Positions 27,580 to 55,693 of a stretch of 64,000 nucleotides of DNA are shown here, piece after piece. A program made the translations under genes and the position numbers. Within the stretch, counting starts at the first letter, position 1, and each line of letters starts with the position of its first letter. The stretch comes from Paramacrobiotus metropolitanus. Its lineage: Eukaryota > Tardigrada > Eutardigrada > Parachela > Macrobiotidae. Where the stretch lies: positions 372,001 to 436,000 of the forward strand of contig NW_026570289.1 in assembly GCF_019649055.1 (NCBI RefSeq), given 5' to 3'. The notes under the pieces were generated by a model, which was not told the origin of the DNA, ran no database searches, and saw nothing but the letters and a program-made list of their open reading frames with translations.

Positions 27580-30500
27580 ATGTCGAATCCCCGAGAAGAT
27601 CAGTACGCGAGAAAGTTCAACACGGACTATTCTCGGCGTGCGAACATGACCGGGAAGTACTCACTCGGTACGCCGGTCAAGATAAAAGTCAGCCGTCCTC
27701 AACCGACTCGACTAAGTCGGCCGAAGCAAGGGAGAAGCGCAACGAGCGGATCCTCCTTGCCGACTCGAATCCAACCTCGGATGACAGTTTTGAGGACGCC
27801 CGGGATAAAACATTCCTGGAAGCCCCAGCTGACACAGCAGCCCCGTCCCACCCGACCAAGGGGGATGCGGAACAGCCGCAAGCTGAGACCACATTGTCTC
27901 ATACCGACCTGGATTCGAGCTCACACAGAGCTCAAGGCTCGGTAGTCACAAAGACAACCGAGCTCGGACGGCATTCACCCAACAGGACGGAAGAGGTGCC
28001 GAAGCCGACTTCGCCCAACATGGACGCTCCGACTAACCAAGTCGGAAGGAAATCGCCGACCACACAGGCCGAGCGAAAATCTCCGACTAAGCAAGTCGGT
28101 GAACAACAACCTACGGTGGCCGACCAACAAATGGTCGACCAGCCGCCGGCAAAAGAAGTCGGTCAACAGCAGGCCGACCTGCCACAAACTCACGGGACCG
28201 AACAACCGACTTCGACCGGAATGGATAAGCCGACAACAGAAGTCGGCAATGTCCAACCGACCACACAGGTCGGAAGGATTTCACCGACCTCGAAAGTCGG
28301 AGAAAAGGAAGTCGGCAACAAGCAACCGACTTCCCTGGAACGGCAACCAACCGACACAAAGTCGGATGCGGCCGTCCAGCCGACTAAAATACCAACGAAC
28401 GAGGTACCGACCGCCAGAAGCTCGCCCAGCTGGACCACCAATACCGGCGTCCACCGGGATCATTTCACCGTTGAGCCGACTTTCGCCAACCGGAAGCGAG
28501 TCGACTCGAGTAACTGAAGCTCAACAAACGGCGAAGCCGACTAAGGCGACACAAAGTCGACCAGTCGACCTGAAGATCCGACCATCACCGTTAATGTTCG
28601 AACCTGGTGAACTTGGTAGCGAAAGAACCCCGACACCGAACGACGAAGTCTTTGACACAACAAAGGTGTCAAGACCGAACAGTGCGGACGGATTCTTCAC
28701 AACACCGGTGAAGTCCAACCAGGACGACCTCACCTACCAGGCCAGTACACTCGAATATACGGCCGAGAAGTGGATAGCGGCAACACCGCCCGAAAGGATC
28801 GTAGACGTTGACCTACTCCGCTCGAGATGCCGTAGACTGATCACTCAGATCGCTTTGGCAGACAGAATTATCGACTCGGCGGGAAAATCGCTCCGAAACT
28901 CGGAAGATACCCATCGGCTCGAACGAAGCAAATGGGAACGCGAAATGGCCGACGCCAACAAAGGCATCGCCATCCAACAACGGGAAATTGACCGGCTGAA
29001 TGCCATATTGAAGCGTACCGACCAACCGTGTCGGCATGACATCGACGAAGCTACTACACTCAAGGGCATGTTGGATCGATCCATGGATGCGGTTCACGAG
29101 CTGAACCGAGAACTCGCCGAAGCGAACAAAGCGCTCGAAGAAGCCCAAAAAGACCTGGCCGATGTGCAGACCGCACTGGTCGAGTCGGAGCAGGCAGCTG
29201 GAGCGTTCCACCAGCAACTTAACACGGCCAACGAAGAAGCCGAGGTCTATCGAAACGAAGTCGATAGATATGTGGTGGAACTGAAGAAGGCCGACGACGA
29301 GATCGACCGCCTAACACACAGAGTCGACGAGCTCGAGGCGGAAATCGAACTTGTCTTCACCAGAATGGGACGACGGTTCATCGACGAGAACGCTCGGGAC
29401 ATGGGCTTTCCTAACCAAAGGACAGCCGATGTCGACCTGGTGGAAGCAAACGCCCAGCTGGCTGACCAGGTCCATGGACTGAACCAAGTCCTTAAGGAGG
29501 AACAGAAACTCCGAGCTCAACTTGAGTACAACTTGAACGAGGCCCAAAAGGTAAACGAGGCGCAACACAGTCGCATCCTTTACCTGGAGGCCCGTGAAGT
29601 CGAACTGTACGACTTCGGCGAACAGGCTGCCCGTAATCTCACAGATATGATGCGGCAAATGGACGAAATGGACATCGAAACAAGATGTCTGAGGGAAGAA
29701 AAGAAACACCTGGAACAAAGCCAGGTCGAACTTCCCCCATACCAAGAACATAGTCGGGTTGAACCTCCCTCATACCGGACGTCCATGGCACAGGATCAAC
29801 AGTCGTCACGAACAATAAGTGACATCCTGTGGGGAATTAACCCGACCCAGGAAATGGTGAAGAAGGAGAACAACACCTCCTACTTCGTCGGAGTCGTAAC
29901 AACCGACCCGAGTGTGGGAACAATCCCACAACCACCAGCAGTACCGAGTGCTCCGGAACCGGAACACAACACGTCGACCGCGGCACCACGAGTGCCAACG
30001 ACGAACGTGGCGACAACGATGTCGGCTGGTGCGTATACCAGCACCTCGTACGCGACGCGCACAACAATGTACGCGCCGGTACCTAATGCCAGAGGAGACC
30101 GGACGACGAACGCCGAACGTCTCCCAATCCAGCCACCAAGACCTGGCATGGAGGCATACCGGCCACCACGGACGAATTCCAACCCGAACTTGCTCCGCCA
30201 GAACCCGCAGTTCGACCTTGAACGCGGGCGAGCTCGGTCATTCAACACGACTGACCAGCAGCAGGACGGACGAAACGGAGAAGACAGCTCCGACCAACAA
30301 GGTCGGAGGCCCCCAAACCGACCTACACAAAGTCGGATGCCGGCTCAGGGAACACAGCCCGACCGGTACGGAAGAGTCTACGACCAGCCAAGTGGATTCT
30401 ACCCGCAGGCGCCGAGACAAAATCGAGCGCCTCCACCACAACAGTATGAAGGACAGCCCCAACAGCCTCGTCACACAGACCAGGCTCAGGCTCGACATCC

Positions 30501-32211
30501 GCAACAGGACGGATACGAAGGCCATGACGACGATGCCTACCAACAGGAGGCGTACGAAGACCAACAAGGTCACATGCCATACGTCAATCCACCACCCGCC
30601 CCGGCTGCACAACAAGCTGCGCCGGCGGCACACCCAAATCCCTTGGAACAAAATCCAGCACACGTTGCTTTGGTACGAGCAATAGCCCACGGACGTCGGC
30701 AACCCTTACCACCGTTCGACGGGGACCACACCAAACTTCATGGGTGGCTCAAGCAAATCCGAAGCCTGTATCGTCAAGCCCAACGATGGTATGAAGACGA
30801 TCAGACCTTCATGTCCGACTTGATAGCCGAACTGGACGGCCAAGCGAAAGAATGGCATACCCTCGAAGCCGCCGGAGAACCACTCGGCGGATGGCCAGTC
30901 AACTTATGGCTGACCAAATTCGAGCAGAGATTTGCGGACAAAAACAAAGAAGTGAACATGATATCCAGGATTAACAAACGGATATTCCGTTTCGGCGAAG
31001 AAACGCCGGAACAATACTACGACGCAATGATGTTCATGAAGTCCCAAGTCCCGACGGTCACAGACCAAATCATACTGTACCACCTTAAGGAGAACGTTCA
31101 TGAGCCCCAACTGCGGGCGGCCCTGGAAATCAGGATGCCGTCAACGCCGATCGAGTTCCGTGACTACCTGCGGGACTTCGTTAACGGCAAGGAAATGTAC
31201 GAGGTACGCAAGTCGCGTGACAGCGACTACGCTAGAGTTCGGGCAGCAACACCTGCACCTGTCCCGACTCCACCTCCGGCGATACCGCAACAGACCGGAT
31301 ATCAGCCCCACATGATGCCGGGATACCAAACTCCAACGGCACAGTACGGACAACTAAGTCCGGCCCCGACGCCACCGGTGCAACAAGCACCAGTCCAGCA
31401 ACAGACGTGGGCAGGCGCGGTAGCAGCGAACCTGAATCCCCCGGCACCTGGAGTTGGAGCCCCCGTTAACAACTACGGCGGCCCACCTGGTTTTGGTTAC
31501 GGACAGAACCCCAGTTAACGGAACCTACGGCGGCCCAGGTTATAGCTCGGGCGGTAACCAAAACAACACAGGTTTTGGTTACGGACAGAACTCGAACCAG
31601 GGTACTCCGCATACGGACAGTATCCTCCACAAGGATACGGCGGCGGAGGTTATGGTCGCGGAAAAGGACGCGGCGGGAATCGCGGCCGTGGGAACTTCCC
31701 TAACCGCGGCGGAGGCGGCGGCCCACAAGGCAACCGACCTCCCCAGGCACAACAAAGTGCTCGGCAAGGAACATCGTACGTCGATAAGATGGAGGCGGCC
31801 TTCTTCCAGTGGACGAAGGACAAGACCTTCCGATGCAGGCACTGCATGTTCAACAACCATGACGAGTCGCGCTGCATCTATGGCTCGGATAACAATCCGA
31901 ACCTTCGGTGGTACGACGACTGGTACCGCCGATACTCGACGAATGGCCCGGTAGGCTCGGTGAATCCCTTCTGGAAGGACATCGTGCCGCCGCCACGCCA
32001 ACGCCAACAGGCAGGAGGCTCGGGTAGCCCCGGTAACAGAAACCGGTCGCCCGGCCAGGGGAATGGCGGAAACCGCAACAATAGCGGTGGGAACCAACAA
32101 GGTTCCCCGGCATACAGAGAACCGTTGCCGCCCCGCCAGTCGCTAAACTCGACGCCACCCAACAATGGGCCGGCTCGGAGTAACTCCCCGGGAAACGCCC
32201 AAGGTCGATGA
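27580..32211 (+). CDS. gag: gag: coiled-coil extension, capsid, RGG box, CCHC zinc knuckle; several frame breaks
   Basis: Starts at ATG 27580 (MSNPREDQYARKF). From the 5' end: low-complexity PT..VG repeats (27700-28480), a long coiled coil (28800-29740, e.g. ELNRELAEANKALEEAQKDL), a Pro/Gln-rich linker, then a Retrotrans_gag-type capsid (30710-31230: PPFDGDHTKLHGWLKQI, EWHTLEA, FEQRFADKN). Next come a GFGYGQN repeat and RGG box (31450-31760), and a CX2CX4HX4C knuckle (31834-31875). Capsid assembles the particle and the knuckle binds RNA. The frame changes near 27675, about 28480, at 31512 (CCCC run; in-frame TAA at 31516) and near 31597 (GGG run). These returns to the original frame suggest one-base homopolymer errors or decay. 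The longest single open part is 28099-31518. Gag here is several times the usual Ty3 size. Confidence 0.85.
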
Positions 32212-33218
32212 GCTCCGGTGACTCATTCGACCTCCAACATCCGACCGAACCACCGGACAAGGATAACCCCACTAATCAGCCGCTAACTTCCCGGAACGAA
32301 CCGAACTTCCCAACGACGATTGAGGAAGGCTACCAACAGGTAGCCACTATCCTCCAACTACTCGGACTGAACGAAAACAGCTCCGAAGAGGACTTCGCAA
32401 AGGCGATATCGGCCTCCACAAAGGAGGCGGAGACGGCTCGGAAGTTAGCCGCTCAGTTCGGCGTGTACGCCAACGACGGCACCGTCGAAGCGTGGCCCGG
32501 GATGCAACAAGCACTCGAGGCGACCGACCCAGCCCCTCGATTTGAAGCTGGAACGTCGGAGGTCGGAACGCAGAAATTGCCCGACCTAAGCAGTGCGAAC
32601 AAAGCGACTGCGCCGTCCGTCACACAAAGTGACGTAGTACGGCCCGGCCACGGAAGTTGGACCGGATTGCCGGTGAGGATAAACTCAACCGAGCAGGCCA
32701 GACGATGCCCAAGACGCGGAGGACCGGGACGCCGATTCACGCACCGGGGCAACAGAAACTTCCCCAATGTATCATCCGGACGCGCAACGGATAGATACGC
32801 TGCGACAATGGCAGCCATCGACCTCACCGAAGAATCGGAAGGAGAAGTCGAAGAATGGGAAACGGTCCCATTGGGAGCACAGGTACCCGTTTACTCTCGG
32901 CCGGGAGAAGCGGACCTCTTCCAGCCAAAAGAGCGACCAGCTAGAACGATAGCCAGTTCTCGAACATTCCTGAACCTCGACTATATGTGGTCGAAATTGA
33001 GGCCAACAGACACCTCAATAGAGGAACGGATACTGGCTCAGGCACAACGGTTCCGAACCGCCAAATTACCGGAGGACGGAGTAGCTAACCGACCTGAGGT
33101 ACAGGAAGCGGGTGAAGTCGGAGTCGAACTTACACAAAGTTCAACTCAACAGCCAGCCGACCACGGACCGGTGTCACTAATTCCCATCAAACCAACGATA
33201 CGGGAAGTAACCTTTTGA
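32208..33218 (+). CDS. ORF2, 336 aa, between gag and pol, unknown function
   Basis: The ATG (32208-32210) overlaps the gag TGA (32209-32211) as ATGA, so termination-reinitiation or a -1 shift could supply it. The N-terminal third has a helical region (EEGYQQVATILQLLGLNE, then DFAKAISASTKEAETARKLA). The middle is Arg/Gly-rich (RRCPRRGGPGRRFTHRG), likely nucleic-acid binding. Then an acidic stretch (DLTEESEGEVEEWETVP) and a C-terminal region with RTFLNLDYMWSKLRPTD. No known family is recognised. It ends ACC-TTT-TGA at 33210-33218. A +1 slip of the Phe tRNA on TTTT would enter the pol frame, so it may be the N-terminal part of a fusion with pol. If TTTT were really TTT, ORF2 and pol would be one frame. 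Confidence 0.75.
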   Translation: MSSGDSFDLQHPTEPPDKDNPTNQPLTSRNEPNFPTTIEEGYQQVATILQLLGLNENSSEEDFAKAISASTKEAETARKLAAQFGVYANDGTVEAWPGMQQALEATDPAPRFEAGTSEVGTQKLPDLSSANKATAPSVTQSDVVRPGHGSWTGLPVRINSTEQARRCPRRGGPGRRFTHRGNRNFPNVSSGRATDRYAATMAAIDLTEESEGEVEEWETVPLGAQVPVYSRPGEADLFQPKERPARTIASSRTFLNLDYMWSKLRPTDTSIEERILAQAQRFRTAKLPEDGVANRPEVQEAGEVGVELTQSSTQQPADHGPVSLIPIKPTIREVTF

Positions 33219-36200
33219 GAAGGGAACGCATAAGAAACCGAAAACAGTTCGAGCTTGGACACACGAAATCCAAGTCGGATCCACGCCCACAATGGCGATG
33301 TTAGATACCGGAGCGGAGACTTCGCTCATCGAACAACGGTTTTGCGAGAGGAACGGTTTAACGATGCAACCCCTCGGACATTACACCAAAATACTTGGAG
33401 TGGGCGGACAAGTCGCCTTTGTAGTGTCACACTGCTGTACGGCACCTGTAACAATGCAGGGCTTTACTAGCCATCACACATTCCATGTCCAGCCGACCGA
33501 AGCGGATATCCCAGTGCTACTCGGATGCGACTACCTGCATTCGAAGTTCACTTTTATTCTTACACCAATTCCAATTCCGGAACAACCGGAAGGAAAGACG
33601 GTAGTGCAGTCTATCCCGATACCAGAGGCATCGGACACGGTAGGAAACGAAGCTCGGATTAGTCGGCTTGATCACCCGGCGAACTCCACACGTAAAATCT
33701 GCCGCGATTGCCGGGATACGAACCGCACTCTGTTGGAGGAACTAGCACTCCACAACGTGATAGAGCACTATCAGAAACGGATACGCAACGGTACACTACG
33801 AACGGCAAGGACGGTACTGAAGTCTATCCCGATACCAGAGGCACCCGCTGAAGCGGATGCCCAGAACCTAGAACGAGTACGACAAAAGTACCGAACTTGG
33901 TTCTCGGGAGCTCGACACTTTCTCGACCAACGGACGTTGGAGATGGTGACCACTCTGCGACAGAACGGAGCGGTAACTTACGAGCAAATACGGGACGCAC
34001 AACAAATGTGTGAACCTGTAATCGCCCTCATGAATGACATAGAGGACGAAGCATGGGAATGGGAAGATGAACGAATTCCGATCCATCGACAGTACATGGA
34101 ATACGGACTCCCCGTCCCACGACCTTTGGAAATGCCCTGCCAAGAACTAGGCTTTCAACTTTTTGCCTATATGCAGCGAGTTCAGTTGCACGGAGAATCG
34201 TCAACGACCGCATTCTGGCAACGGTATGGCGAAGACACCGCTATAACGCGACATGTTCCCGACCCATTGCCGCCAATTGAGGAGCATACTCCGACCACAG
34301 TGCAATTCGTGAGTAGCCCGGCGAAACCCCAGGATGACGTAATCCTGGAGGAAACTGATAAACCTTATCAGTGTACCATCTGTAAGGACAACATTGACGG
34401 AGTGGTACGGGCCATAAAGGCTCATCACGACTTAACTTGGTCGGACGACAGACCGTCGTCACCGTCACCTCCGCAACAGGAACGGAAGGTAGACCGCTTT
34501 CGGAAGCCCCAACAGACGCGCATCCAATGGCTGAGCGACATAGGCTCACAACCAACCGACCTTGAGAACCAGGACGGAGCAAGTCGACCTACCCAACCGA
34601 CGGAGCAAGTCGACCAAGCCGAAACGACCACACAGGTCGAAGTCGGCAATATACCGCAAGTTGGACAGGAAGACGGAACAACCGTCGAAAACGAAGATTA
34701 CCAGTCGGACGACTCGGATATACAGAGTACGAGTGATTCGGCGGACACAGACTCCGATAACCGACCTTCGGAAGAATCCGAGGAAGAAGACGACGAAGAA
34801 TTCGATCTGTCAGTCCGACACTGTAAGACGGATAAACCGAGCATAAACGACTCGGATGATTCGTCATCGGAGGATGAAGAACCGACCTACGATGTCCGAC
34901 TAACTACGGCATTGCGGACTATAGTTCACACAGAATTTATAGTCGAGCAACCGGAACAAACCGAACAACCGAAGCCGGTCGACTCCGAACAACAGGAAGA
35001 ACTTGACCAACTTAAGGCTTTGCGGGAATTCGGAGGAGGTAAACCGGAGGAAGACGATCTCCAACCTCCAACTTTATTCGTCCAGCAGTTGTCAACCGAA
35101 CAACCGACCTTGGCTAACTTAACCGACCAACAGAAGTCGGAGCATTTCAACACATGGAAAGCACGAGTCGCCAAAGTAACGACGATCGAGGAGTTGGACC
35201 TGGACAACAAATGCCCAGAAGTCCACCACCTAAAGCTGGATCCCCACGTAGAGACGAAAGCGCTAGACCGACAAGTCGTCTTCAACAGCGAGCGAGTCTC
35301 TCTCCCAGCATGGTCAACATGTTCGATAAAGGTACGGACGGCCAAACCAATGGACCCGAGAAGACCAATTTACTTCTCTACCCTACAACGGGTAGTCCGA
35401 CCTATCCGGCCAATCGAAGCCAAGATCGACATCCGACCGACAAACGACACGGCCTGGATAAACATTCAGAACACGACTCACCAAACAAAGGTGCTGAAGA
35501 AAGGTGTTCGACTCGGACATATGCAATACGCCGATGTCTATGAACCGGAAATCAACAATGCATTCGTCGAATGGGAACTCCCACACAGAGTGGCGAAGAC
35601 TTGGCCCCCGACTCGGGAAGCAAAGCCAAAACCCCAATTCGAAGTTTTCGAGGCAACAGGAGTTCGAGCCCAACGGAAGGTCAAACTCATCCCTCGAGCC
35701 GTAACTATGGTAGAAGTCGTCCTGGACGTACCGGTATCCAAGGACCAGAAATTGATGTACCTCGGTGAATCCGACCCCAAACGAGACGGAGTCGAATTCA
35801 TGGACGGCGTAACCAAGCATGACGGGAAACGATTCACCGTCATGGTGGCAAACCACACTCATCGCGAGGTGACCTTACGCAAAGGTGCCCCGATGGGTCG
35901 AGCCGAAGCATTTACAATGATGACGGACGACCAAAAAGTCGAAGAAGCACGAGTCAACACGGCTGAAGTCGAGCAGGAAGACGCGGAATCCCAAGAGGAG
36001 CGACGAAGAATCATCGACTCCATGAACTTCGGTAAAAACTTAACCGACGAGCAACTAGCCAAACTGAAGGCAGTTGCATGGGATTACCGGACCGTATTTC
36101 CGACCTCGAAGAAACCTTACGGAGACGTCAAAGGGGTAACACATACCATTGATGTCCAAGGGGCGCAGCCGATTAAGATGAACCCCACCAGGACAAGCTG

Positions 36201-39200: not shown

Positions 39201-39803
39201 ACCTCCGACCGACTTCGAGACACCTGCACTGAAGGAACTTCAGAAGCAAGATGTGATAGCTGCCGACCCAGCACCGACCTCGGAGGAAGTCGACGAGCAC
39301 AAAGCTCAGCCGACCACCGAGCAGCCGAAGAAGTCGGATGATAAGTCGGAAACGCCGGTCCAGCCAGCCAACCAACTAACAGAGGAACCGAAGTCGGCAA
39401 CAAAGCCAGCTCGGAAAGAAGAGGACGGTAAAGCAAACCGACCCGTCGGCACCGACCACAGAGGCCGTTGTAGCCGACTCGGCAGTCCAACCGACCAAGC
39501 CAAAGCGCAAGTATACGAAGCGGAAGGTCGACTTACCTAGTACATCGGCGCCGACCACGGAAGTCGTAGCAGCCGACCAGGCAGTCGAACCGACTAAGCC
39601 GAAGCGGAAGTACGGTACAGCTCAAGAAACCGAAGCTAACGGCACAACAGATGCTGGAGGAAACAGAAGTCGCTGAAGATGAAGCCCATAAGGAAATCCT
39701 CGAACGAATTACCGAAGGACGGGCGGACTCGGAGAAACCAGTCAAAACAGCAAAACCTAAGACACCCAAAACAGCAGTCACAACAGAACAGACTCAGTCA
39801 TAG
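33211..39803 (+). CDS. pol: pol polyprotein: protease, reverse transcriptase, RNase H, integrase, AT-hook tail
   Basis: The frame is open from 33211; the first ATG is 33292 (2,082 codons to TAG 39540). Counting from that ATG: aspartic protease LDTGAETSLI (residue 4 on; its first strand lies upstream of the ATG, supporting entry by frameshift). A long spacer follows with two C-x2-C-x13-H modules (residues 137 and 361) and acidic stretches. RT spans about 965-1150 with FAYIDD at 1114-1119. RNase H has DASGAGLGAV (1267) and TDHRALQNLL. Integrase has an H2C2 zinc finger (near 1576-1615), then D..D..E in YADFKG, HSDRGTHF (1697) and PEGQGQVERQ. A GPY-like module follows (YDGVWTVINYVGPNNLLLRC), then AT-hook KRGRPRKKP (about 1963). 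Coding continues past 39540 in another frame after a CCC run near 39441, with a tandem TKPKRKY repeat, to TAG at 39801-39803. This makes DNA copies and inserts them. Confidence 0.95.
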
Positions 39804-45900: not shown

Positions 45901-48900
45901 CGGATCGAACTCACCAAAGTTTGCACGGAAGCCAAAAACGACGGATAACGTCGAAGAGCATGGACCACGCAGGCGGCTCTTCCCGTCGAAGTCGCCATCA
46001 CCAGTCCCAGTCAGGACCAAGGAACAACTCTTGGAAATCCTGAAGGCGACTCCGTCTACCCTACCACCGGCCGAAGAGAAGCCGAGCCCGTCGCGGAAAG
46101 TGATGGGAGCAAAAGCCTTGTTTACTCCGGCCGTCCATAAGAAGCTAGTCGGCCAAGCCAAAACGCTGGACCTTCAACGGATACTCTACGAAGCACAACT
46201 TCAAGGAGGTATCCGAGATCGGACCATGACAGAAGAGCAACAGACTCAAATGGCCCAAAAGATCCATGCTACCATCCAGGATAGAGACAAAGTCCTGAGA
46301 AGGCTGGTTACTCTGAGATGCGGGAAGCAGGAGTTACGACAACTCCCGCTGGACACGAACATGATCCAGACAATTCAACGTCTCCGCAATCCGAGCATCA
46401 ACCCGGGTGCCTATACACTGGAAATCCAACCTCGGCCTGGAGAAGAAGTTACCGAGAAGATTCCGATAACAATGTCGGATAGCAGCGAAGATGAGGAGAA
46501 CGCGGACAACATCGACTCCGACGACTCCATGCACCAAAAGGCAGCGGCACCTACGAAGGGATCTATACCGAAACGAGGTAGATCGCCGGTAAAGCAGATT
46601 TCGCCGACTCGATCAGCATCCCAGCCGACTAAGCTGCCAAGTCAACCGACGACTGAGAAACCACCTAGGTTCTCACCTCGGAACACCCCAACGAAACCAA
46701 AGAAAACCGAAGAAGCGATGGATACAACATCCCCTTCGGAAGCGCGAGTCGGAATTACGGTCGAAACGTCACCACAAAGGGACGAACCGACCTCCGTTCA
46801 CTCTGGTCCACGTCTAACAATAGACGAGTCTCGAACGAACGAGTCGACGACCGAGTCGGGTAACATACCGACCAAACGGAGTACGGCCAAGGAGAAACCA
46901 CCTCAAGACTCGTCGCGGGAATTTCATGACGACCTAGCCTTACAACACGTAAAGGACTTGACGAGGTTGGAACAGGACGTCTGCATCGACATGGCGTACC
47001 CAGAGGATAGGGAACTCTGGCATTCGCTGAGAATCCGACGTGCCAGTATAGTCGGAAACACCACGGAAGCTCGGCGTGACCACGACCGACTTACCGAGAA
47101 GATGGCCGACGTGATGAAACGAATGGGAGAACACTACCGAGCGGAAAGGAGTCGACCTAAAGCCCTACAAGAGGCTACGTCGACTCAGCGTAAACTCACC
47201 GCCCCGGAACCCAAGTCAACCAAGAAGACGGTACAACCACCCGTCGTCAAAATGAAAGTTCCCCCTCCGATTAGACAACCTTCTGTCCAAATTGACGATG
47301 ATCTCGACGCAAGGGTCATCAACTCGGCTAATTCCGCGAAATCCCACAAGGATAAACGGAAGGCTAAGAAGGAAGCAGCAAAACAGTCTGCCAAGCCGCA
47401 GCCGACGGAAACCCAAAAGAAACCAGTCAAGTCGGAAACCAAGGAGCCGGCCAAACCGAAGTCGGACTCCACGGTTAAGACGCCGAAGCCCAATCCGGCC
47501 AAACGGCATAAGTCATCCGACGACTTGGATATTTCGGATGCCGGCCCACAAAGGACCGAGCAGAAGGAGAAGGCTCAAGAACCGCACGACAAGGAGGCGG
47601 TCGAACGGAAATTTAAGGAAGTCATGGAACGAACCGGCACAAAGCCGGCTAAGACTTCAGGAGGTCGGCTACGAAACCCACCAAAACCACCGACTCCGCC
47701 TGAACAATCTCAGCCTTCAACATCCAAGCAACAGTCCGATGTAGAATCCGACCAGGCCTCGGACATTGAAGATAAGGATTCAATCTCCGACCACGGAGAT
47801 GGGGATCCCTATGAAGGATTTAAAGGCGACATGAAAGAAATGTTTAACCATGGAGCGGACACCGACGAATCCCAGTGGCCAGCTCCAGACGATGTACGCG
47901 AGCGTCTTCCGGACGAACAGCCGGAGGACCCGGTCGACACATTAATCCGCACAGTCCGCGTACATGTCGAAGTCGTCCGTAGTATTCGGAGTGCCAAGGA
48001 AAACGGCAGGGACATCTACCAATCCATGGTACAAGACTTGTCGAATAACATACAAGTCGAAGGCGAAACCGGAACGTGGTTAACGCATCAACTCATGATG
48101 CAAATCGTCGCCTGGACCCTCGATTACGGATTAGCAGTCGCCGTCCACCGACAATGGGGACGGATGGCCGAAATTATCCAACCGGACCTCATCAAATCAC
48201 TTAAAAGTGCAGCAGCAAGAAATGCAGACGACACACCGACTAGAATTGCGCGGTGTATCGGATACATCCGGAACCCCCGCGGATCGACTCTGGTCCAAAT
48301 TGCCCGTGTATACAACGTGATGTACATGGACAAGAAGGGGAACATCGATGAAATTATCACGTATAGGATAGGCGAACGAATCGCGCTCCTGGTTGAGCAA
48401 CATACTCTTCAGACGACTAACGCAGAACGCGACGTGCCAGTTCGGTATACCGTGCCAAACTTCATACCGGAACAACATCGGCGTGAATTTAACCTCCGGA
48501 TGTCTTACGTCAACACAGACAAGCCTCCGGCGGGCACGGAACCGACCGAAGAATACAGTGAATCCAACGAACAACCGTCGGCTGATGCAGCCACTTTGCT
48601 GCATATAGCTCGTACGGCTGCACAGTCGTCACAAAAACGAGTACAAGCCTTAACCCGACCTCGAGCACCGCACGAACCGACAACATATGTCGGCACGGCA
48701 TCGGCTCCGGCGGGACGAGCAAGCACAGCCAAACCAACTAGGAGTGCGAAGGGACGGTTCATACCGAAGGACGTACAGTCACTTCCACCGTCCTCGCCTA
48801 TGGAAATTTCGCCGGAACCAGAAGATACCCAACAGAAGGGAAAGTCGAAGTCGACTAAAACGAAGCCGACTAAGCCGGCTAAGAAAAAGGAACCGAAGTC

Positions 48901-49876
48901 ATCCGAGCTGATCTCGTCATCCGAGGAAGAAACCGAAGACGAAGACGATGACGACGACGAAGATTTCCGAACACCTGGAAATGGATCGCCAAAGGATGAC
49001 GATGACGATGATGACGACGGAGATGGTAAGCCTCCACCACCGTCGAACTCGGGACCTCAACAGCAGGCCGAGCCGGAAATACCGGATAAACAACCTGAAG
49101 AGAAGGATAGCGGCGACAAGGCCGACGACTCCAAGAGTAACGAAGACGATGGCGGAGTATACGTTCCTCGTCAGTACGGTAAACGAGTACCACTGACGCC
49201 CGACTCCGACCACCAGCCACTTCGTTCGGACTTTCATGAGGATATGATAGAAGTCCTACCAGACGATATTCCCCCACTGGTCAACGTTAGGTTGAAGTAT
49301 ACCGGCATTAAATCGGCTTCGAAACCCAAGCCGAGTGTCTCGGAATATGACGCCGGATGGATGTACACATTCGCCGCTCTGAAGGCCTTGGCCACACGTG
49401 GACCAAAGTTCGCCACACCAAGAATCGCCTTCAAACTCCTCCAACACTGGAAGGTAGATGAAACGGGCGATTGGCGACAACTTAGTCAGAACAACGTACG
49501 ACATTACTGCGACCTCGGATACCATGCCGGGAAGCTGATACGTACATACACCAGCGGAAAGCGGATGTATTACGAGTTCCCACCGGCTAAGAAAGACCCG
49601 GCTCCTTCAACATATGAAGGATGGATACACGCTATTGAAGCGTGCATGGAAATGTCCTGGCACCCTGACGGACTTACCCGCGGAGAAATACTCCACCAAC
49701 TTATAGCGCGGTTTGAGTTCCAGTGGACATCAACGGAACCACAGCTGGTCGATCCCAAATACAAGGCCAAACCGGACACGATTGCCGGACGGAAAAAGTA
49801 CTCCCTGGACGACGAACTAGAATTCGTCATATCGAAGGCACTCTACCAACAACGATTCGCCACTAAACACCGATAA
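39980..49876 (+). CDS. ORF4, 3,298-aa modular helical accessory protein
   Basis: One uninterrupted frame of 9.9 kb, not recognised. Residues 1-290 are Ser/Pro/Thr-rich with PTMAPGMAN-type repeats. Residues 307-1880 hold at least 14 diverged helical modules. Type A (about 60-70 aa helical hairpins) starts near 307, 429, 510, 965, 1434 and 1511. Type B (about 75-90 aa, with core KINDLIAHIGLTEDLTRYGL at 858) starts near 625, 731, 834, 1058, 1195, 1311, 1652 and 1787. TTQV/TTQA linkers separate many. Then a charged, disordered region with SDSSEDEE-type acidic runs, a globular segment at about 2650-2845 (WLTHQLMMQIVAWTLDYGLA), an Asp/Lys-rich region with poly-Asp, and a C-terminal domain (3090-3298) possibly winged-helix. 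No signal peptide, membrane helix or Env motif. Likely structural or nucleic-acid-associated; function is inference. Confidence 0.85.
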   Translation: MSGRHRHDPPSSGSNSGRSGSGSNRSQPYPTSYTSHRSTSRSDNSRSATQTPLPQVDNPSANLTANVLAGLTVGSQRGAIPPQVLPPNTAVDTTGCLWNLGTGTSQTTPVTAADLHGQMPPYRWSAPTTIVGPTSSASTMMTGAAYPSPTMVSGMANTPATVYMVPTMAPGMANIAGPIYTTPTLAPSSFPYTPPAMRFASIPPTSGMPPPQIATISMVNPDGTLSPPRPILLTPPTSPTHFRPPGQQSSWMDPNATTHLMNRLNQHRSQVGGQSQQVPVSTTATQVVTSMPPPLVVVQEINTNGRTDEELRQQAKLARAHIDTISHALTQTSQMDPSHADYRAALLNQLSYNETRLNEATKTLYQREQQSLRICQQAVARNVAQRLGDPEPDPSSITTQVVVPTSQPTPSTSEGQQVPGRTPSLEIGKLRVQKEEAMKEAIKLRMSYSKIPHTSENYSAEMGRIGREEQQCTDQAAHLERKIRAEERNLRSSGVSAPTTQAVIDEEIRLARLDALAQKRDEYLHRIDEAKQRLPTLDPTKEHHHRIFQSNLELIDHWTKKYMEQENEIRALQPVTTQPAAVPTSQPQPMMTVNVGQGLLPIQIPAFQQPTQQVPQELPVSPLPTLQELRAFLRMAGIVVERMGAVMEDTQAGTPEWQALEHNGKVIRDYMAGLQSYLTTGLPTTMAELTVIRTRMQNAQNRIDRHHHLTQNLEAAERRSSAVPTPQITDVRAAIEVGNRILDGIRMTQGGDLPAIANRAQIVNDLHRSLRIARQLLELRDGITTDDQAVRLNMHYRRIQQIIQSQTGGTEQQVPQLRYHAMALQIGQDDQTTEVWKTILDGKEALQAIYGRIANGIQNPTDLDPVRKINDLIAHIGLTEDLTRYGLPTTEVDKHRLRTAMDQVKTAILAEKEKPPTSLTDGAQPTTLPSIAMVTSPISSPPPLPTTQVDSGAHPPNTQVFDPARLRTLETLKRRRDEAVKQSNTIRERMQNLPTSGADHPQKFQVLLNQYKQVSDSLTELDKLIQVEQHMIQLTATPRSAKTTQALATPAVDGEKTFADAKAAVEEAKQILTKVYERSRQGLERFALQKINDFTTHIELVENLIRSGMPQTLAHQQLVQPGVELLSKLNADNRSILTLPSTTTTQAATSTLPAKRSQCRPADSDTETSDALPSTSSAMEMHSAMRKSRREKMAGIITDGWNLLEHLQRSFVNETPSDPETLKVARQKMNDLMAYLKKADILMGKSEPTEADERQLRSVVERITEILDAEPAYSKRIPTPSPPRRAAPTTTAVMTLVGTTPMENPIANMDIITQAGQDLADIFFHRLSGTLTEQEETDLTRIDRALRLELDWADTLGSWEIPPPGPNRDRLIEALQSVIDYVKQYLANPNKAGAPVPARERTPSPVPSVGLDVELPFTEVVEQKEVNIGEVEDQYREAVEVMEKLGKQLRELDPNNATEKQMRDALDQQYTICSRRVEDLWKVLEANPQRVQPTSIQPQPTTSQQPPEPTMAEQRAELDQRLARAKKIAADLQRQVDSMDGTDPTICNIRTAIGDQLKISQMHVQDIEAEYDMLRRKWMTDKTRHERLERYRKETQQDASGSQQPNTSSQPTSTMSLAQSKPMEMADRPMSPATEARIMEAIPDTDELPSTVAPHIAKLLTRVAELITEMRARRNFCVDNSQEANDLDRDILAWGNNARFIRRLCHPDAPQTTRTRQHLIRTTSWLETRVNEYEEEKERDKEQESTSVATNAMAEGRSSRITKIQTARKPTFDSVRLPPPAPPAKPDLEWIKAVNTQLLRADAVILELRKMMDETDQRSPQYCQIDINLGHLENNTKEARFILRPTTVWSAKNQERLQTLVAMIQSFVDDFYKRKEAEEQRKLKRPPSAKKPKVQSVKPTQVVPPVSHQDEPMDEVPVPPLEGDDEPMDTSEEVGTTEVIRPKPLERPTTLPGLSQREPQSERTPDGRLILQPGGSNSPKFARKPKTTDNVEEHGPRRRLFPSKSPSPVPVRTKEQLLEILKATPSTLPPAEEKPSPSRKVMGAKALFTPAVHKKLVGQAKTLDLQRILYEAQLQGGIRDRTMTEEQQTQMAQKIHATIQDRDKVLRRLVTLRCGKQELRQLPLDTNMIQTIQRLRNPSINPGAYTLEIQPRPGEEVTEKIPITMSDSSEDEENADNIDSDDSMHQKAAAPTKGSIPKRGRSPVKQISPTRSASQPTKLPSQPTTEKPPRFSPRNTPTKPKKTEEAMDTTSPSEARVGITVETSPQRDEPTSVHSGPRLTIDESRTNESTTESGNIPTKRSTAKEKPPQDSSREFHDDLALQHVKDLTRLEQDVCIDMAYPEDRELWHSLRIRRASIVGNTTEARRDHDRLTEKMADVMKRMGEHYRAERSRPKALQEATSTQRKLTAPEPKSTKKTVQPPVVKMKVPPPIRQPSVQIDDDLDARVINSANSAKSHKDKRKAKKEAAKQSAKPQPTETQKKPVKSETKEPAKPKSDSTVKTPKPNPAKRHKSSDDLDISDAGPQRTEQKEKAQEPHDKEAVERKFKEVMERTGTKPAKTSGGRLRNPPKPPTPPEQSQPSTSKQQSDVESDQASDIEDKDSISDHGDGDPYEGFKGDMKEMFNHGADTDESQWPAPDDVRERLPDEQPEDPVDTLIRTVRVHVEVVRSIRSAKENGRDIYQSMVQDLSNNIQVEGETGTWLTHQLMMQIVAWTLDYGLAVAVHRQWGRMAEIIQPDLIKSLKSAAARNADDTPTRIARCIGYIRNPRGSTLVQIARVYNVMYMDKKGNIDEIITYRIGERIALLVEQHTLQTTNAERDVPVRYTVPNFIPEQHRREFNLRMSYVNTDKPPAGTEPTEEYSESNEQPSADAATLLHIARTAAQSSQKRVQALTRPRAPHEPTTYVGTASAPAGRASTAKPTRSAKGRFIPKDVQSLPPSSPMEISPEPEDTQQKGKSKSTKTKPTKPAKKKEPKSSELISSSEEETEDEDDDDDEDFRTPGNGSPKDDDDDDDDGDGKPPPPSNSGPQQQAEPEIPDKQPEEKDSGDKADDSKSNEDDGGVYVPRQYGKRVPLTPDSDHQPLRSDFHEDMIEVLPDDIPPLVNVRLKYTGIKSASKPKPSVSEYDAGWMYTFAALKALATRGPKFATPRIAFKLLQHWKVDETGDWRQLSQNNVRHYCDLGYHAGKLIRTYTSGKRMYYEFPPAKKDPAPSTYEGWIHAIEACMEMSWHPDGLTRGEILHQLIARFEFQWTSTEPQLVDPKYKAKPDTIAGRKKYSLDDELEFVISKALYQQRFATKHR

Positions 49877-49926
49877 AACCCAAGGCGGTCAACGGTTTAT
49901 CGCCTTAAATCCATCAAATCACCGAC

Positions 49927-50208: not shown

Positions 50209-50227
50209 GATGCAACCGAGAAACGGT

Positions 50228-50249: not shown

Positions 50250-52439
50250 ACTCGTACGGAAGAGCCCCGAACGGAAGCCTTTACGGTGGACTGCCAACAG
50301 TGCATGGATAATGCGACGAGGGACAACAACAGAATGCCCTGCGCGCTGTGCATCGTATCCTTCACGAACGAACGAATTTCCGGCACCGGAGCGCAACACC
50401 GTGCTCAGGCGGCGGCACTTTACCTAAATGTTGTCGCTGGCAATTTGAGCGCATACCGGTACTTGGCCGGCAGAGAATACCTGATTAATCAACTGGAGTC
50501 ATATGAACAGGACAATCTGGCTACAATTCAGCGACAACGAGCTCGCGACCCGAGATGGGAAGAAACTCGACCACCAGTCCTAACAAATAGGCTGTTCGAG
50601 TACCGTCAGATGTTGGACCTGCAACGTCAACTTGACGACCAGAAGAAGATAAAGGAGGTCGATAGGAAGATCGCCACAATGCGAGTCCATCCACCACCGA
50701 CCGATTTCGAACCGGAAATAAAGATTCGGGTACAGACACCCACACAGGGTCTCCCGACAGTCGGAGAATTAACTCCTACAATACGTGATGTCTTCGTCGG
50801 AGATTCGAACCGACCGATGACCGGCGCATCTATAACGATGATGATGAATATGCCGGACGGAACTCAACAGCCAGTCACCTTCACACCGGCAACTCAGGAA
50901 CAGTTGATGGCAATCCCACACAGGGCAATGCCAGTGGTCACACAGGCCCGTCCAACTGTTTCTCAGCAGATTCCTCAATCCGGAATCCCTGGAAATCGCG
51001 CTCAACAGCAGCGCCGACCGAGCAAAAACCTTGCGGGACATGATCTTAGACACCGGATCGGCCCAGTTGACCTTCGAGACAGAATCGAAGCGCAACGAGC
51101 CGTTATCCATGAAGCAGGAAAGGAGCCAACCAGAGCTCCACCAGGGAAACGTACTGGATCTGGAGAAACAGGGATCGGACTTACGGTCGACTTAACAAAT
51201 AAGTCGAAACGTAACGTCATCCCACCTGAACAACGGCCGGAAGCTCAACAAGCAGAACCACCGGCCGAAGTCCAAGCTGAACTGGCAGCTCAACAGGAGC
51301 AGATGGACGTCGACGTAGCCGACCAGATGGCACAACTGCCACAAGTGGAAGTGCCGATCCGAGAAGACCCTCGCTATGACCGAGCTCGACAACAAGGAAT
51401 CGAGGTCGTCATGCCACACCCTACCGAAAGGACGAACCACATTATGAACGTCATGAATTACGAGGAACGGTACCGACCACAAATCTGGCGGATGGTAGAA
51501 AACCTTCGTCAATTCCTCGTCCGATCCGGATATCAGGCGCTGTTCGAACAACATCAGTGGCGGTCTGACTTCAACATGAACGCGCACACAGCGCCGAATG
51601 TTGAACACCCGTACACCAGATCGAATGCGTTGCCGTCGATGACCGACCCGGTCTTGCTGAATGTACCATTGTACAGCCCGGACGGAACACGTGCGAGCCA
51701 ACTAGGAGCTCGGGAATACTCCCATGACGAGTTGGAGAGTGTTGCCCAGTTCGTCATTACGGACGCACACCCAGCCTTTGTAATCACCGCGGCTCGGGCA
51801 GCACTGGATTTAACCCAGTACCTTCCGGAAGGAGAAGTCGACATGGCCCAGGACGGAGCCACGGCATTCCTGCGATTCATCTTCGCAGCTCGACTCGGCA
51901 ATTACTTTTGCCATTACACCCTGTACGGACTGTACCACAATGAAGCGATACCAGCAGCTGTGGAAACCCTCGTAGCCCAACTCGGCACACCGATGAGAAG
52001 TGTTATCCTAGCTGTCTGGATGCGTGACTTGCTGTACACCCACGAACGGTATGCGACAAAGTATGCCTTTCGTGAGGATCACGTAGATCCCAGCGACGAT
52101 GCAACCCGATTCATCAGCTGGTACCGCGAAAAGAAAACTTTGCCTAGCGGATTCAACTCGTCGCCCTACGAACCTTGGATGTCGGATGACATAGCACCCG
52201 GCGCACGACCGTTCGCGCTGCGGCTCCGCAAACAAGCGGCCAAGGAATCGAGGAAGAGCAGAGCGGAGCGCCCAGGCCAAGAAACAGATGAGACCGACGA
52301 GATGTCTCAACGGAGTGGCCCGGCGACTTGCAAACCAAGGGACCCCAATATACGGCCACATAACCGACCTGGCCCGGACGACGATGAAGAAGAAGATTAC
52401 TTCGGCGGCGACAAACCCGTCGAAGTTCCACTCAGTTAA
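50250..52439 (+). CDS. ORF5, about 730 aa, zinc-ribbon N-terminus, unknown function
   Basis: The frame is open from the acceptor at 50249 to TAA 52437-52439; the first ATG is at 50304 (711 codons). A CxxC-x14-CxxC pair (CQQC and CALC) straddles that ATG, with the first CxxC upstream. A spliced transcript that supplies an upstream start would keep the whole zinc site. Residues after it are helical (EYLINQLESYEQDNLATIQR; FEYRQMLDLQRQLDDQKKIK). A Gln/Pro-rich middle follows, then a well-ordered C-terminal half (MVENLRQFLVRSGYQALFEQ, ATAFLRFIFAARLGNYFCHY, LVAQLGTPMRSVILAVWMRD) and an acidic tail DDDEEEDYFGGDKP. No Env, protease or known retroelement domain is seen, and no membrane helix. The C-terminal half could be a capsid-like or packaging helical domain, but this is a guess. 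Confidence 0.8.
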   Translation, partial: TRTEEPRTEAFTVDCQQCMDNATRDNNRMPCALCIVSFTNERISGTGAQHRAQAAALYLNVVAGNLSAYRYLAGREYLINQLESYEQDNLATIQRQRARDPRWEETRPPVLTNRLFEYRQMLDLQRQLDDQKKIKEVDRKIATMRVHPPPTDFEPEIKIRVQTPTQGLPTVGELTPTIRDVFVGDSNRPMTGASITMMMNMPDGTQQPVTFTPATQEQLMAIPHRAMPVVTQARPTVSQQIPQSGIPGNRAQQQRRPSKNLAGHDLRHRIGPVDLRDRIEAQRAVIHEAGKEPTRAPPGKRTGSGETGIGLTVDLTNKSKRNVIPPEQRPEAQQAEPPAEVQAELAAQQEQMDVDVADQMAQLPQVEVPIREDPRYDRARQQGIEVVMPHPTERTNHIMNVMNYEERYRPQIWRMVENLRQFLVRSGYQALFEQHQWRSDFNMNAHTAPNVEHPYTRSNALPSMTDPVLLNVPLYSPDGTRASQLGAREYSHDELESVAQFVITDAHPAFVITAARAALDLTQYLPEGEVDMAQDGATAFLRFIFAARLGNYFCHYTLYGLYHNEAIPAAVETLVAQLGTPMRSVILAVWMRDLLYTHERYATKYAFREDHVDPSDDATRFISWYREKKTLPSGFNSSPYEPWMSDDIAPGARPFALRLRKQAAKESRKSRAERPGQETDETDEMSQRSGPATCKPRDPNIRPHNRPGPDDDEEEDYFGGDKPVEVPLS

Positions 52440-52467: not shown

Positions 52468-52626
52468 CCCCATTGGAATAATTTCAAGGAGGCATTGCCG
52501 AGAAACGGCACGGTCGAGAACCGACCTTCCGACTGAGAAACAGTCTAGCTGAGAAACAGCGCCGTCGAGAACCGACTTCGGAATGGACACTTCTCTTTAG
52601 TTCTTTTTTTGGGAAAATGACCAACC

Positions 52627-53039
52627 ATGTACGCGGCGGACGTCAACGACGATTTTGCCAGAAAAGCCGACTACACAAGTCGGCCGGATTCTTTGGTCGA
52701 ACCCGGAAACGCGTGGTTAGACCCGGGTATTTCGGCTCTTTCACCGTACCGGTACGTCCCCCAAGGAATCCCCTGGAACGAACTGGGCAACCGACCCCAG
52801 TTCCCCAGCTTGGCAAAAAACAGATCGTAACCACATCTGCTAACAAAGCAGATCGTCAACCACGTTCTGCGACCATCGGAGCCAACAGAAGCCCCAATCC
52901 GCGTTACATGAAGATTACTCCGGCCAACCGACTCCGGAGAAGAAACCGAGAGGATTACGCTAACATGGTGTGGAACACATCGCTGCGTGCTCAACACCAC
53001 GTTTGCCAAGCACCCGTGGCCAACTTCGGAACCGGGTAG
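52627..53039 (+). CDS. ORF6, about 137 aa across a -1 frame change
   Basis: ATG 52627 opens MYAADVNDDFARKADYTS and runs to TAA at 52828-52830. The -1 frame continues open to TAG 53037-53039 with similar codon use (ending HVCQAPVANFGTG). The overlap contains A-AAA-AAC at 52815-52821, in the right phase for canonical -1 slippage, followed by a hairpin (52835-52840 ATCTGC with 52848-52853). The shifted part is basic (RLRRRNREDYANMVW). No family is recognised. An error in the A6 run is the alternative. Confidence 0.45.
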
Positions 53040-55693
53040 CCGAGCAGTCTTCACCATTGTAAATAGCGGAAATCCCTCGGCCGAGCCGCCAACGGCGCAG
53101 GAAGACTCGGATTTGACTAGGTACAAGAGCCGACCACAAAGGTCGACTTCGTACTTTGCCCATAACTTGGAGACATAATGGATACTGCTGCGCAAGTCGA
53201 CCACAAAGGTCGGTTGTGCAAGCCGATCACAAAGATCGGTTTTGGAAACCCAAACTGTTCGACCCGCATTGATGCAGATCGTTAAAACCATGATTCGCTA
53301 CCTTTAAGACGACCACAAAGATCGACTGAGTACATGGTAGCCGACCGACAGAAGTCAACTATAGACAACGGATGGAAGCCGGCAGTAGTTACGTGGCAAT
53401 TCAACCGGATTCTCCGTTTGAATCCAGACCTACAGGCTCTGTACCTGGAGATCAACCGCAGTCTCCTCCGGACGACATCGGGTAAACCAGCCGATTCACC
53501 GGTGACCACGACTACGCGCGTCTTTGAACGTGCTGCCATTCCCTGAAGAGGAACAGCGACGGTGATTTGGATACTGGTGTACCAACGACTCCGCCGCGAC
53601 CTGCTTCCCCATGTCTCCGATGGAACATCCTAGGCAGACCAAGTTAGAATACTTGATCTGCACCCTCTTAACGAACCCCGATGACGATGACCACCTGCCC
53701 GCAACAGTACCGGCCAGTCGGTCTTCGTCAGCGGCAAAGAAAATTTCCCCGCGGACGTGAGTCGTCTACCCCCAACAGAAGCGGCTAGGCGTCACAGGTT
53801 CGCGACAAAACAGAATGGAAGAATCGGATCTGACGACCTCAGGGACTTGCATGTGCATGAAGTTTAAACCAAAGAGCTCGGCTCGGCAACCGGGGCCACA
53901 AAGACCCTTAGCGTTGTGAGCGAGCGCAGTGCATGATGAAACGCCAGTCAATCGGCCAACAGATGCCGGAGGAAAACCTTACCTCGCAGGACTTGGCGGC
54001 CCAGAAGCAAGTGATTCGGATTAACCGACCTCAACAGTAGCTCGGATCCGACCTGGAGTTCACGTCAGAAATCACAGAAGGAACGGAGTTGTGTTGCCGA
54101 ACATCCCTCTGCCAGTCCGAACTGACCGAAGGATGTCCTGACACCAAGGACCCGGCCAACTGTAGCCGAACGCACAGAACTCCTAAAATGAAGTCGACAA
54201 CCATCAGATGGAGGTCGGAAGTAAGCGACAACAAGTCGGAAAATCAACCAGAAGTATGAAATCGACCTCCTAGTGGAAGAATTTAGCCTTTCGTCGGATA
54301 AAACACAAAGTTTTTCCGACCTGGGGAAGTCGGAAAATAGCCGACCTCCGAACTTGGACATGGATATCCGACCTCAAGCCGAGGTCGGAAGTGACCGTAT
54401 AGAAGTCGGCAGGGTACGACAACAAGTCGGCAAAGGCATTCAGAAGTCGAGAACCGACCTCCTAACGCAAAGATCCGACCTTCGGACGGATGGAAACATA
54501 GTTCATCCGACCTTCCGAAGTCATCTATAACCGACCATAAGTCGGAAGTCGGAACTCCCTTTCAACAAGACGGAAAAAGATCAACAGCTGTCTGCGGTGG
54601 ACGAATTCGACTTGAAGGAACTTGTTTAGCCCCACATGGGCATGTTATTGCAGGTTAACCCTAGTCGACCACTGACGGATAGGATAACCGACCTCGACAG
54701 AAGGTCGGATAACAACGGAACACATTGGATGGAAGTCGACTGGACACTTCCATCGATGAAACTCATGAATTCCGACCGGACCTTCGAGCCAGTTCGACTC
54801 GGATTACTACAAACCAGGCTCGTGGTAGCAGATTGAACGGTTGTAACCGACCACTTTTGAACGGAACTGCTGTACATGACGACCACACAGGCCGCATGAC
54901 TCACTTACAGCTTTCTCCGACCTGGACTTTAGCAATTCGGAACATAGCCGAATTCCCCTAGCCGCCGGTCGACTTACCGGTAGGCCGACCTTGGTCAAAC
55001 CGACCTCGGTTCTATTCCCCATTCAGAGAGGATGCCTCGGCATTTGCAACCGCAACAGTGCCTCTCTATCCCGAACGGACGGATACGAGTCGGAAGTAAG
55101 TGTTTAACCGTGCTTACCCGACCTCGGTGAATGTAACCGGTTACGACGGGTAACCCGGGAACCGATGCCCCGGACCCAACTTACCGGATGAAAGTGGACA
55201 GGAGACCCCGTGGACGTCATCCTAGTCGGAATAGGACCCCCGGACAGATTTTTGCATTTTTTTAGCATTTTTCCTAACAAACGGAATTGTATTTTTCTAG
55301 TTCGATCTCTTTGACAGATCTGTTTTGTAACCCCTTTGCTCACTGGAATTGTGATTAAACTTTATTTCATACTTTCTTTCGCGCTGTATACAACTTTCAT
55401 TACACTTTTCTTTCACATTGTTCTCCGTTGCCAACAGAAGCAAGAAGCCAGCCAACAGAAGCACCACCGGTCCAACGAAACGCCCGAGCGGCTTCCGGAT
55501 TTTTCGGCCGTGAGTGGCTTCCACTCATGGGTCTGGAAGTGAAGAAGGGACGGTCAACCAGACACCGGACTCCCACTGCTAGAGGACGCGTACCAGCGAC
55601 CCCACATTGGGTCCGACTGGAGAGTTGTGCGGTACTGGTGCGGTACCGAGTCGGAGCATCCTTCGCAGGAGCTCGGATTCCCGCCCAGAGGCA
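53040..55693 (+). other. 3' non-coding tract of the element
   Basis: 2.6 kb with no long ORF. Inverted CCGACC...GGTCGG words are dense (53131-53239, 54310-54560, 54685-54710), including perfect ACAAA-loop hairpins at 53131-53145, 53198-53212, 53223-53239 and 54300-54314. Short open pieces look like decayed coding sequence. No polypurine tract abuts the LTR; the nearest purine run (GGAAGTGAAGAAGGGA, about 55535-55550) is some 143 bases upstream. Confidence 0.6.

Follow-up and report, generated by a model that had tools for sequence, protein, structure and literature searches.

Why should a single giant retrotransposon carry dozens of small hairpins that share a loop and little else? The question is raised by a 64,000-nucleotide stretch of the genome of the tardigrade Paramacrobiotus metropolitanus (contig NW_026570289.1, positions 372,001 to 436,000; here called the window), which contains a Ty3-like long terminal repeat (LTR) retrotransposon of ~30.3 kb at positions 25834-56130. 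A first-pass annotation had noticed at least 23 perfect or near-perfect hairpins in this element, between 28257 and 54314, with a nearly fixed five-base loop on stems of unrelated sequence, and had proposed either a process that creates short inverted duplications around ACAxA, such as snap-back synthesis, or selection of RNA structure at many sites. The reading that we favor, at a probability of about 0.58, is that these are dispersed, family-specific recognition hairpins for an RNA-binding protein encoded by the element, probably the zinc-knuckle nucleocapsid of Gag, selecting or compacting a very long RNA. As a whole, the interpretation given in the first-pass annotation is partly supported.

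One class of loops on many stems

Between 27101 and 55300, 38 of 232 ACANA and 9 of 107 AACAA pentamers are flanked by a perfect stem of at least 4 bp, whereas 60 dinucleotide shuffles gave 0.7 (maximum 3) and 0.3 (maximum 3), respectively. These 47 motif hairpins, all on the forward strand, are the set followed here, and statements about their pairing come from predicted folds. The hairpins described earlier are real, since all 12 stems named there were found with the loops attributed to them, but the count was too low, and the dispersed sites reach from 27495 to 54429. The loops originally listed are indeed enriched, at 18/68 for ACAAA, 12/60 for ACACA, 9/107 for AACAA, and 5/75 for ACAGA, compared with a rate of 0.0073 over all pentamers of the element; AGAAC, AGAAA, and ACATA (3/29) come next in rank. 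The true class is nevertheless ACANA plus AACAA, together with RACANNR heptaloops, which close 19 hairpins in the element versus 0.8 in shuffles. When one imperfect pair among five is allowed, 87 sites are found versus ~4 expected.

Hairpins with an ACAAA loop lie at 28351..28365, 32412..32428, 37935..37947, 39295..39307, 44438..44452, 45840..45852, 47634..47648, 50579..50591, and 53223..53239; those with ACACA at 27917..27933, 28257..28273, 33126..33142, 41170..41182, 45361..45373, and 52666..52684; those with ACAGA at 35581..35593, 44599..44611, and 44975..44991; those with ACATA at 48677..48693 and 49603..49621; and those with AACAA at 30288..30308, 30559..30571, 31377..31391, 32089..32107, 33575..33591, 34672..34686, 52835..52853, 54226..54238, and 54417..54429. 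The rest are given below with their predicted folds. Sites occur in coding and noncoding parts alike, as had been claimed, at a density of 1.2-2.5 per kb in seven regions and of zero in two short gaps (427 and 370 bp). The stems are varied, but 14 of the 47 contain CGAC (counted by eye), so that "unrelated" overstates their diversity. All 17 of the 17 copies fetched (~10 kb each) carry 7-15 ACANA and 3-6 AACAA hairpins. Comparison with host DNA, which had been proposed at the outset, gave 1/177 ACANA and 0/55 AACAA in the 32 kb of flanking window DNA, a flank that is not a sample of host mRNA.

The sense strand of the element is A-rich and T-poor, with an AT skew of ~+0.3, and such strong A-richness, or codon use, might produce A-rich loops as an artefact. 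The codon-preserving shuffles that had also been proposed speak to this directly. In the five open reading frames (ORFs), 31 ACANA hairpins with stems of at least 4 bp are observed; synonymous-codon shuffles gave a mean of 1.1 (maximum 4) and codon-plus-dinucleotide shuffles a mean of 2.1 (maximum 6), with 100 shuffles of each, and all other pentaloops in the same ORFs number 94 versus 66-69 in codon shuffles. Because dinucleotide, synonymous-codon, and codon-plus-dinucleotide shuffles all fall short of the counts, an artefact of composition or codon use is refuted, and the chance we still allow it is next to nil. The loops in these ORFs do use all three codon phases, although not evenly, phase 0 being dominant (19, 5, and 7 of 31). 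The enrichment strongly supports selection on hairpins with a shared loop.

Two generic explanations for the choice of loop were set aside. GNRA tetraloops are not enriched in the same interval (1 versus 4.3 expected, that is, below expectation), and therefore the excess does not reflect generic loop stability; UNCG loops are not enriched either. Kissing loops were ruled out, ACANA-type loops having no self-complementary run.

Predicted folding and lower stems

Folded in a 165-nucleotide context, the motif stems have a mean predicted pairing probability of 0.89, and 44 of the 47 exceed 0.5, compared with a mean of 0.41, and 50 above 0.5, among 123 other pentaloop hairpins. Three are predicted not to form as drawn, namely the ACACA hairpin at 50738..50750 (loop at 50742), predicted to form only rarely (0.16), and the ACAAA hairpins at 53131..53145 (loop at 53136; 0.01) and 53198..53212 (loop at 53203; 0.02, with a possible lower stem), the arms of which pair otherwise in the local fold.

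Many motif hairpins continue beyond a bulge or small internal loop into a lower stem. Such stems are predicted for the ACAAA hairpins at 28121..28137, 28547..28559, 32618..32634, 33998..34010, 45258..45272, 51187..51207, and 54300..54314; for the ACACA hairpins at 27495..27511, 34625..34639, 36135..36147, 42813..42827, and 51582..51594; for the ACAGA hairpins at 42642..42656 and 43764..43778; and for the ACATA hairpin at 43264..43278. The lower stem is 8 bp long at 36135..36147 (loop at 36139; pairing 0.56) and at 51582..51594 (loop at 51586). A lower-stem score of at least 5 is reached by 16 of the 47, versus a mean of 5% (maximum 13%) when 5' and 3' flanks were re-paired 300 times and 7% of 129 other pentaloop hairpins. 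Of the 47 hairpins, 34 are closed by C-G and 2 by G-C.

Related families favor other loops

Related elements, whose reverse transcriptases (RTs) are 85-95% identical in protein, were fetched from the same genome. With the window element and its copies as fam1, we distinguish fam2 (L031, L027, and L030) and fam3 (L029 and L032), each covered over ~20 kb, as well as fam1b (L035; 78% DNA identity to the window element) and fam3b (L034; 82% to L029), each covered over 10 kb. For fam2, we cut 1500 bases from the start of L031 and 2000 from the end of L030, where A-richness falls off.

Each family favors its own loop. In fam2, 43 of 936 YANC tetraloops form hairpins, versus 2.5 (maximum 9) in shuffles, accompanied by UAC triloops (13 versus 0.7) and [AC]AACC pentaloops (9 versus 0.3); its relative L028 has 13 YANC hairpins versus 1.4. 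In fam3 the loops are CAAUA (6/25) and CAAUWA (6/10), each versus 0.1, and fam3b has CAAUWA at 5/12 versus 0.0 and CAAUA at 1/16. In fam1b they are CACRNAA heptaloops (6/13 versus 0.1), and ACGNA is also raised (5). We chose the patterns for fam1b, fam2, and fam3 with the stretches concerned already in view, and they recur in other copies only in L028 and L034, both of which are homologous and so not independent, with no such repeat for CACRNAA. Codon-preserving shuffles (60 of each kind) gave 3.1-3.8 for 38 observed YANC hairpins in fam2 and, in fam3, 0.0-0.1 for 6 CAAUWA and 0.7-1.1 for 8 CAANA. A partition-function count free of the perfect-stem limit returned the same kinds of loop for each family, often closed by C-G; in fam2, 34 of 43 hairpins have a C-G closing pair. 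Lower stems scoring at least 4 occur at 14 of 43 fam2 sites (permutation mean 11%, maximum 23%).

In other families the main loops are close to background. ACANA hairpins amount to 2/102 in fam2, 1/65 in fam3, and 2/54 in fam1b; YANC is near background outside fam2 (4 versus 3.4 in fam1, 4 versus 2.6 in fam3); and CAAUWA hairpins are 0/5 in fam1 and 0/4 in fam2. An alignment of pol with 41 hairpins of three families places them mostly in different positions, with two pairs falling within 3 columns of each other (499/500 and 1659/1662). That giant elements in one genome have family-specific loop preferences is a new result. In L036, a further member of fam3, the same hairpin with a CAACA loop occurs twice, at 1034 and 1079, 45 bases apart, probably as a tandem copy.

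These differences bear on whether the loop matters at all. Selection might instead favor many short local hairpins as such, which would compact the RNA or avoid long double strands and kissing loops, with A/C loops serving only to stay unpaired. The A-richness of the element and the A/C-rich character of the enriched loops in every family fit this idea, as does a general excess of small loops in fam2 (109 tetraloops of any sequence versus 69-72, and 125 pentaloops versus 73). Loops of similar composition are not interchangeable, however: in fam1 YANC does not rise above background, and in fam2 and fam3 ACANA barely does. A general tetraloop excess is absent from fam3 (79 versus 77-82). We regard this explanation as improbable.

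They also bear on who reads the loop. Host proteins such as those with Smaug/Vts1 SAM domains read a loop on a variable stem, and a host RNA-binding protein of this kind could act in export, translation, or stability and not in packaging. In favor of this idea, host proteins are known for stem-indifferent loop recognition, the sites are found in coding and noncoding parts alike, and AGAAN-loop hairpins are raised in several families (see below). A single host reader would nevertheless be expected to keep one loop, whereas related families in the same host favor different main loops; because of this difference, a reader that evolved with the element is likelier than a host factor, and we consider the host alternative unlikely, though worth keeping in mind.

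How sites change between copies

Aligned copies offer a view of how the hairpins arise. In these comparisons L025, which lies at a contig end, was left out, and, for covariation and for retention between families, unaligned hairpins or hairpins with indels were set aside and counted separately. Six stretches from five copies gave 79 motif hairpins, which are not independent sites, for comparison with the window. The window has the same hairpin in 47 cases; the stem differs in 24, the loop in 5, and stem and loop together in 2, and a single case is partial or an indel. Among the 24, five have a gap of 1-2 bases at the edge of the stem, and none of the 79 is a hairpin that the window lacks entirely. 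Snap-back synthesis, or another process inserting inverted duplications around ACAxA, would leave behind many perfect stems that differ in sequence. The copies differ by substitutions or 1-2-base gaps, with no complete hairpin lacking in the window, the loops are family specific, and lower stems continue beyond bulges, all of which count against gain of hairpins as whole units; we consider such a process very unlikely. The codon-controlled enrichment, the predicted folding, the lower stems, and the family-specific loops support the other explanation proposed at the outset, that RNA structure is selected at many sites.

Some changes preserve pairing. In 5 copies a G-C pair of the stem at 32412..32428 is replaced by A-T, and in 3 copies a T-A pair of the stem at 33126..33142 is replaced by C-G; between fam3 and fam3b, two hairpins have exchanged A-T for G-C pairs but kept their loop. 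From fam3 to fam3b, a perfect inner stem is retained by 5 of 6 motif hairpins, compared with 54 of 150 others (P = 0.03, one-sided Fisher test); the reverse comparison, which is not independent, gave 5 of 6 aligned (of 7) versus 58 of 179. Among fam1 copies, covariation appears stronger when counted as cells with loops of 4-8 nucleotides, standing at 33 to 2 for motif hairpins versus 32 to 24 for others. Standing imperfect stems favor G-U pairs in fam3 and fam2. The four fixed loop bases diverge by 2.0% at the 12 ACANA hairpins with perfect stems in the first 10 kb, versus 6.5% at 71 nonhairpin ACANA sites (P = 0.02), a comparison that favors sites picked for being intact in the window.

The loop itself may shift between close families. 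The six CACRNAA hairpins of fam1b correspond in the window to four CACRNAG (closing G for A), one CACGGAA present in both, and one site not covered. Viewed from fam1, 3 of 13 CACRNAG sites (34629, 37662, and 39457) show the change to CACRNAA, and those at 34927 and 38569 (3-bp stem) keep G in fam1b. The few sites concerned hint at a concerted shift.

A zinc-knuckle frame as candidate reader

Retroviral Gag proteins read loops of structured RNA, and the best candidate for a reader in the element is a frame directly after gag. This nucleocapsid-like frame (31558..32208, forward strand) encodes a CCHC zinc knuckle (CX2CX4HX4C), which is the sole recognized RNA-binding motif found in the analysis, and an RGG-rich stretch. 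The knuckle reads CRHCMFNNHDESRC in fam1, CHFCKFGNHPQARC in fam1b, CNHCLWGNHPTEGC and CNFCLWGNHNPSEC in fam2, and CGHCLWGNHNQASC in fam3, so that its sequence, like the loop, differs between these four families; the frames of fam1 and fam2 share 39% identity across 90 amino acids. The pattern is present in 6 of the 7 pieces examined, the window included. The frame has no Pfam match, and a homologue search that returned 223 candidates gave none at an E value of ≤0.001. In the window copy, stops at 31516-31557 separate the gag frame from the knuckle frame. In L036 and in L037, a member of fam1b, the knuckle lies inside longer open frames of 566 and 499 amino acids, respectively.

On our favored reading, the hairpins would be selected stem-loops, most likely in the sense transcript, each presenting a short A/C-rich loop (C-[ACANA]-G in fam1) on a stem whose sequence would be nearly irrelevant; some 50 perfect and 80-90 near-perfect sites are spread over the ORFs and the noncoding parts. 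They would be read by a protein whose sequence changes along with the element, for which the zinc-knuckle nucleocapsid at the C terminus of Gag is the best candidate; by binding many sites, it would select the ~30-kb RNA and compact it into particles. The hairpins, their excess over the shuffles, their predicted formation, the lower stems in fam1, and the loop preference of each family are observed; from these we infer the binding of a protein, the identity of that protein, the sense RNA as the strand read, and the role in packaging or compaction. A more specific version, which we put forward tentatively and at somewhat less than even odds, is that each family carries its loop as a label on ~50-100 hairpins of its ~30-kb RNA, read by its own nucleocapsid, so that self could be told from related RNA and the long RNA folded into a particle; after a change in the reader, the set would be rewritten site by site.

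Several observations weigh against the favored reading. Alignment of copies had been suggested as a way of separating gain of whole units from covariation of stems, and, while the first found no support, the second is weak among fam1 copies: motif hairpins show 6 distinct two-sided Watson-Crick events, 2 broken, and 38 one-sided broken, and nonmotif hairpins show 57 two-sided Watson-Crick events and 45 broken. Stem divergence is 4.4% in motif hairpins versus 6.0% in others (P = 0.11), with no difference for stems of at least 6 bp. Imperfect stems now standing in fam1 do not favor G-U. Only 1 of 6 aligned motif hairpins is kept from fam1 to fam1b, versus 41 of 136 others, and from the fam2 member L027 to L028 the figures are 16 of 31 for motif hairpins versus 76 of 185. 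In fam2, lower stems scoring at least 5 (5/43) stay within permutations (maximum 16%). Folding the antisense strand of fam1 returned the complementary loops equally, and there is no G-U excess among one-sided changes (0.47 versus 0.46); therefore, the strand is not proved. The examined piece of the copy L021 contains no knuckle pattern.

The borders between families are not clean-cut either. In fam1b, AACAA is kept (3 versus 0.1) and RACANNR is raised (7 versus 0.3); in fam1, UAC (4 versus 1.0) and [AC]AACC (3 versus 0.5) are slightly raised; and L036 and L037 have one ACANA hairpin each. Pentaloops of the form AGAAN are raised in fam1, fam2, L028, and fam3 (12, 6, 6, and 7 versus 0.9, 0.5, 0.3, and 0.7) and may be a second loop class common to the families. 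The 12 in the window element lie mostly outside ORFs (2 inside versus 0.6), and AGAAN hairpins at 50042, 50219, 52501, 52517, and 52536 cluster in the noncoding stretches beside ORF5. If many copies are decaying, as may be the case, signals of selection would be diluted.

Structure and copies of the element

The element is bounded by a 5' LTR of 436 bp (25834..26269, beginning TG and ending CA) and a 3' LTR of 437 bp (55694..56130), which are 97.3% identical and, like all features given here, are placed on the forward strand. A primer-binding site after a 5' LTR typically opens with TGG, and the sequence directly 3' of this one starts with TGG, consistent with such a site. A target-site duplication was looked for beside both LTRs of the window copy, and none was found (TCTGT versus AATGA); its absence may reflect rearrangement of this copy. 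The pol frame (33292..39540) has Pfam matches to a protease-like domain, RT, RNase H, and integrase, the protease match lying just under the cutoff. An order of protease, RT, RNase H, and integrase is the rule in Ty3/gypsy elements, and the element has both this order and two LTRs. The closest relatives of the pol protein are P. metropolitanus proteins.

The gag-like frame (27946..31515; 1190 amino acids from stop to stop) resembles a frame of L031 (38% over 104 amino acids) and has no Pfam family above the cutoff. ORF2 (32208..33218; 336 amino acids) has no assigned function. A search of PDB sequences gave no match for ORF2 and a single match, at an E value of 0.88, for gag. ORF4 (39980..49876; 3298 amino acids) and ORF5 (50286..52439; 717 amino acids, with no assigned function) have local matches of ~26-52% identity in related families, both without a Pfam family above the cutoff, and ORF5 has one database relative at an E value of ≤0.001, from the same tardigrade. 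A scan of 25834-56130 with Rfam gave 0 matches at the gathering threshold.

Copies are numerous. A 501-base probe has at least 40 scored matches (131 candidates) in the 169.8-Mb assembly, and an RT probe has at least 91 (1751 candidates). Upstream of the element, positions 20000-25202 of the window contain nested, almost perfect inverted and direct repeats, including 1320-nucleotide arms at 20825-22144 and 23433-24752; these may be another mobile element, a palindrome, or an assembly feature.

Comparison with known systems

The hairpin set would work like the dispersed packaging signals of single-stranded RNA viruses. In satellite tobacco necrosis virus (STNV), about 30 packaging signals per genome display AXXA in loops of 4-6 nucleotides, with stem sequence irrelevant (PMC3593212). 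The likeness lies in numerous stem-loops that display a short, degenerate motif in the loop on varied stems, and the ACAA loop of the STNV aptamer resembles ACANA. There are also differences: STNV is a 1239-nucleotide virus whose coat protein has been shown to prefer the loop, whereas our system is a ~30-kb LTR retrotransposon with a CCHC Gag as the putative reader, and its loop differs between related families. More generally, the packaging-signal model, set out for MS2, picornaviruses, and hepatitis B virus, envisages multiple dispersed sites with a common recognition motif; it is described for viruses, Gag-like proteins being mentioned only as a possible wider case (PMC6281560). In keeping with such a model, the tardigrade element carries many hairpins along its length with a common loop motif beyond chance, and across the 47 the stem varies while the loop is kept. 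In mouse mammary tumor virus, Gag reads an unpaired purine loop and the primer-binding site in structured RNA (PMC8096270), that is, two sites within the packaging-signal RNA, unlike the dozens along the whole RNA here.

Burro and Ogre, from planarians and plants, are giant Ty3/gypsy-like LTR retrotransposons that have additional ORFs and reach 25-30 kb or more; they are compared here by description, and the description, as far as accessible, mentions no such hairpins (PMC6431247). In the literature, as judged by title and the start of the abstract and with most subscription papers outside the scope, no description of such hairpins was found in retrotransposons or tardigrades. The length limit of retrotransposons was traditionally put at ~10 kb, with particle capacity as one factor (PMC6431247), and for this reason many cooperative sites would make sense for a 30-kb RNA.

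Dispersed packaging signals are difficult to demonstrate, given how short and degenerate each single site is. The present case, with its long sequence, its dozens of sites per element, its many copies, and its related families that differ in their loops, puts the question within reach of a test by comparison. If the favored reading is true, it bears on RNA packaging by an element three times as long as the traditional ~10 kb and on the way in which related elements sharing a genome keep their RNAs separate.

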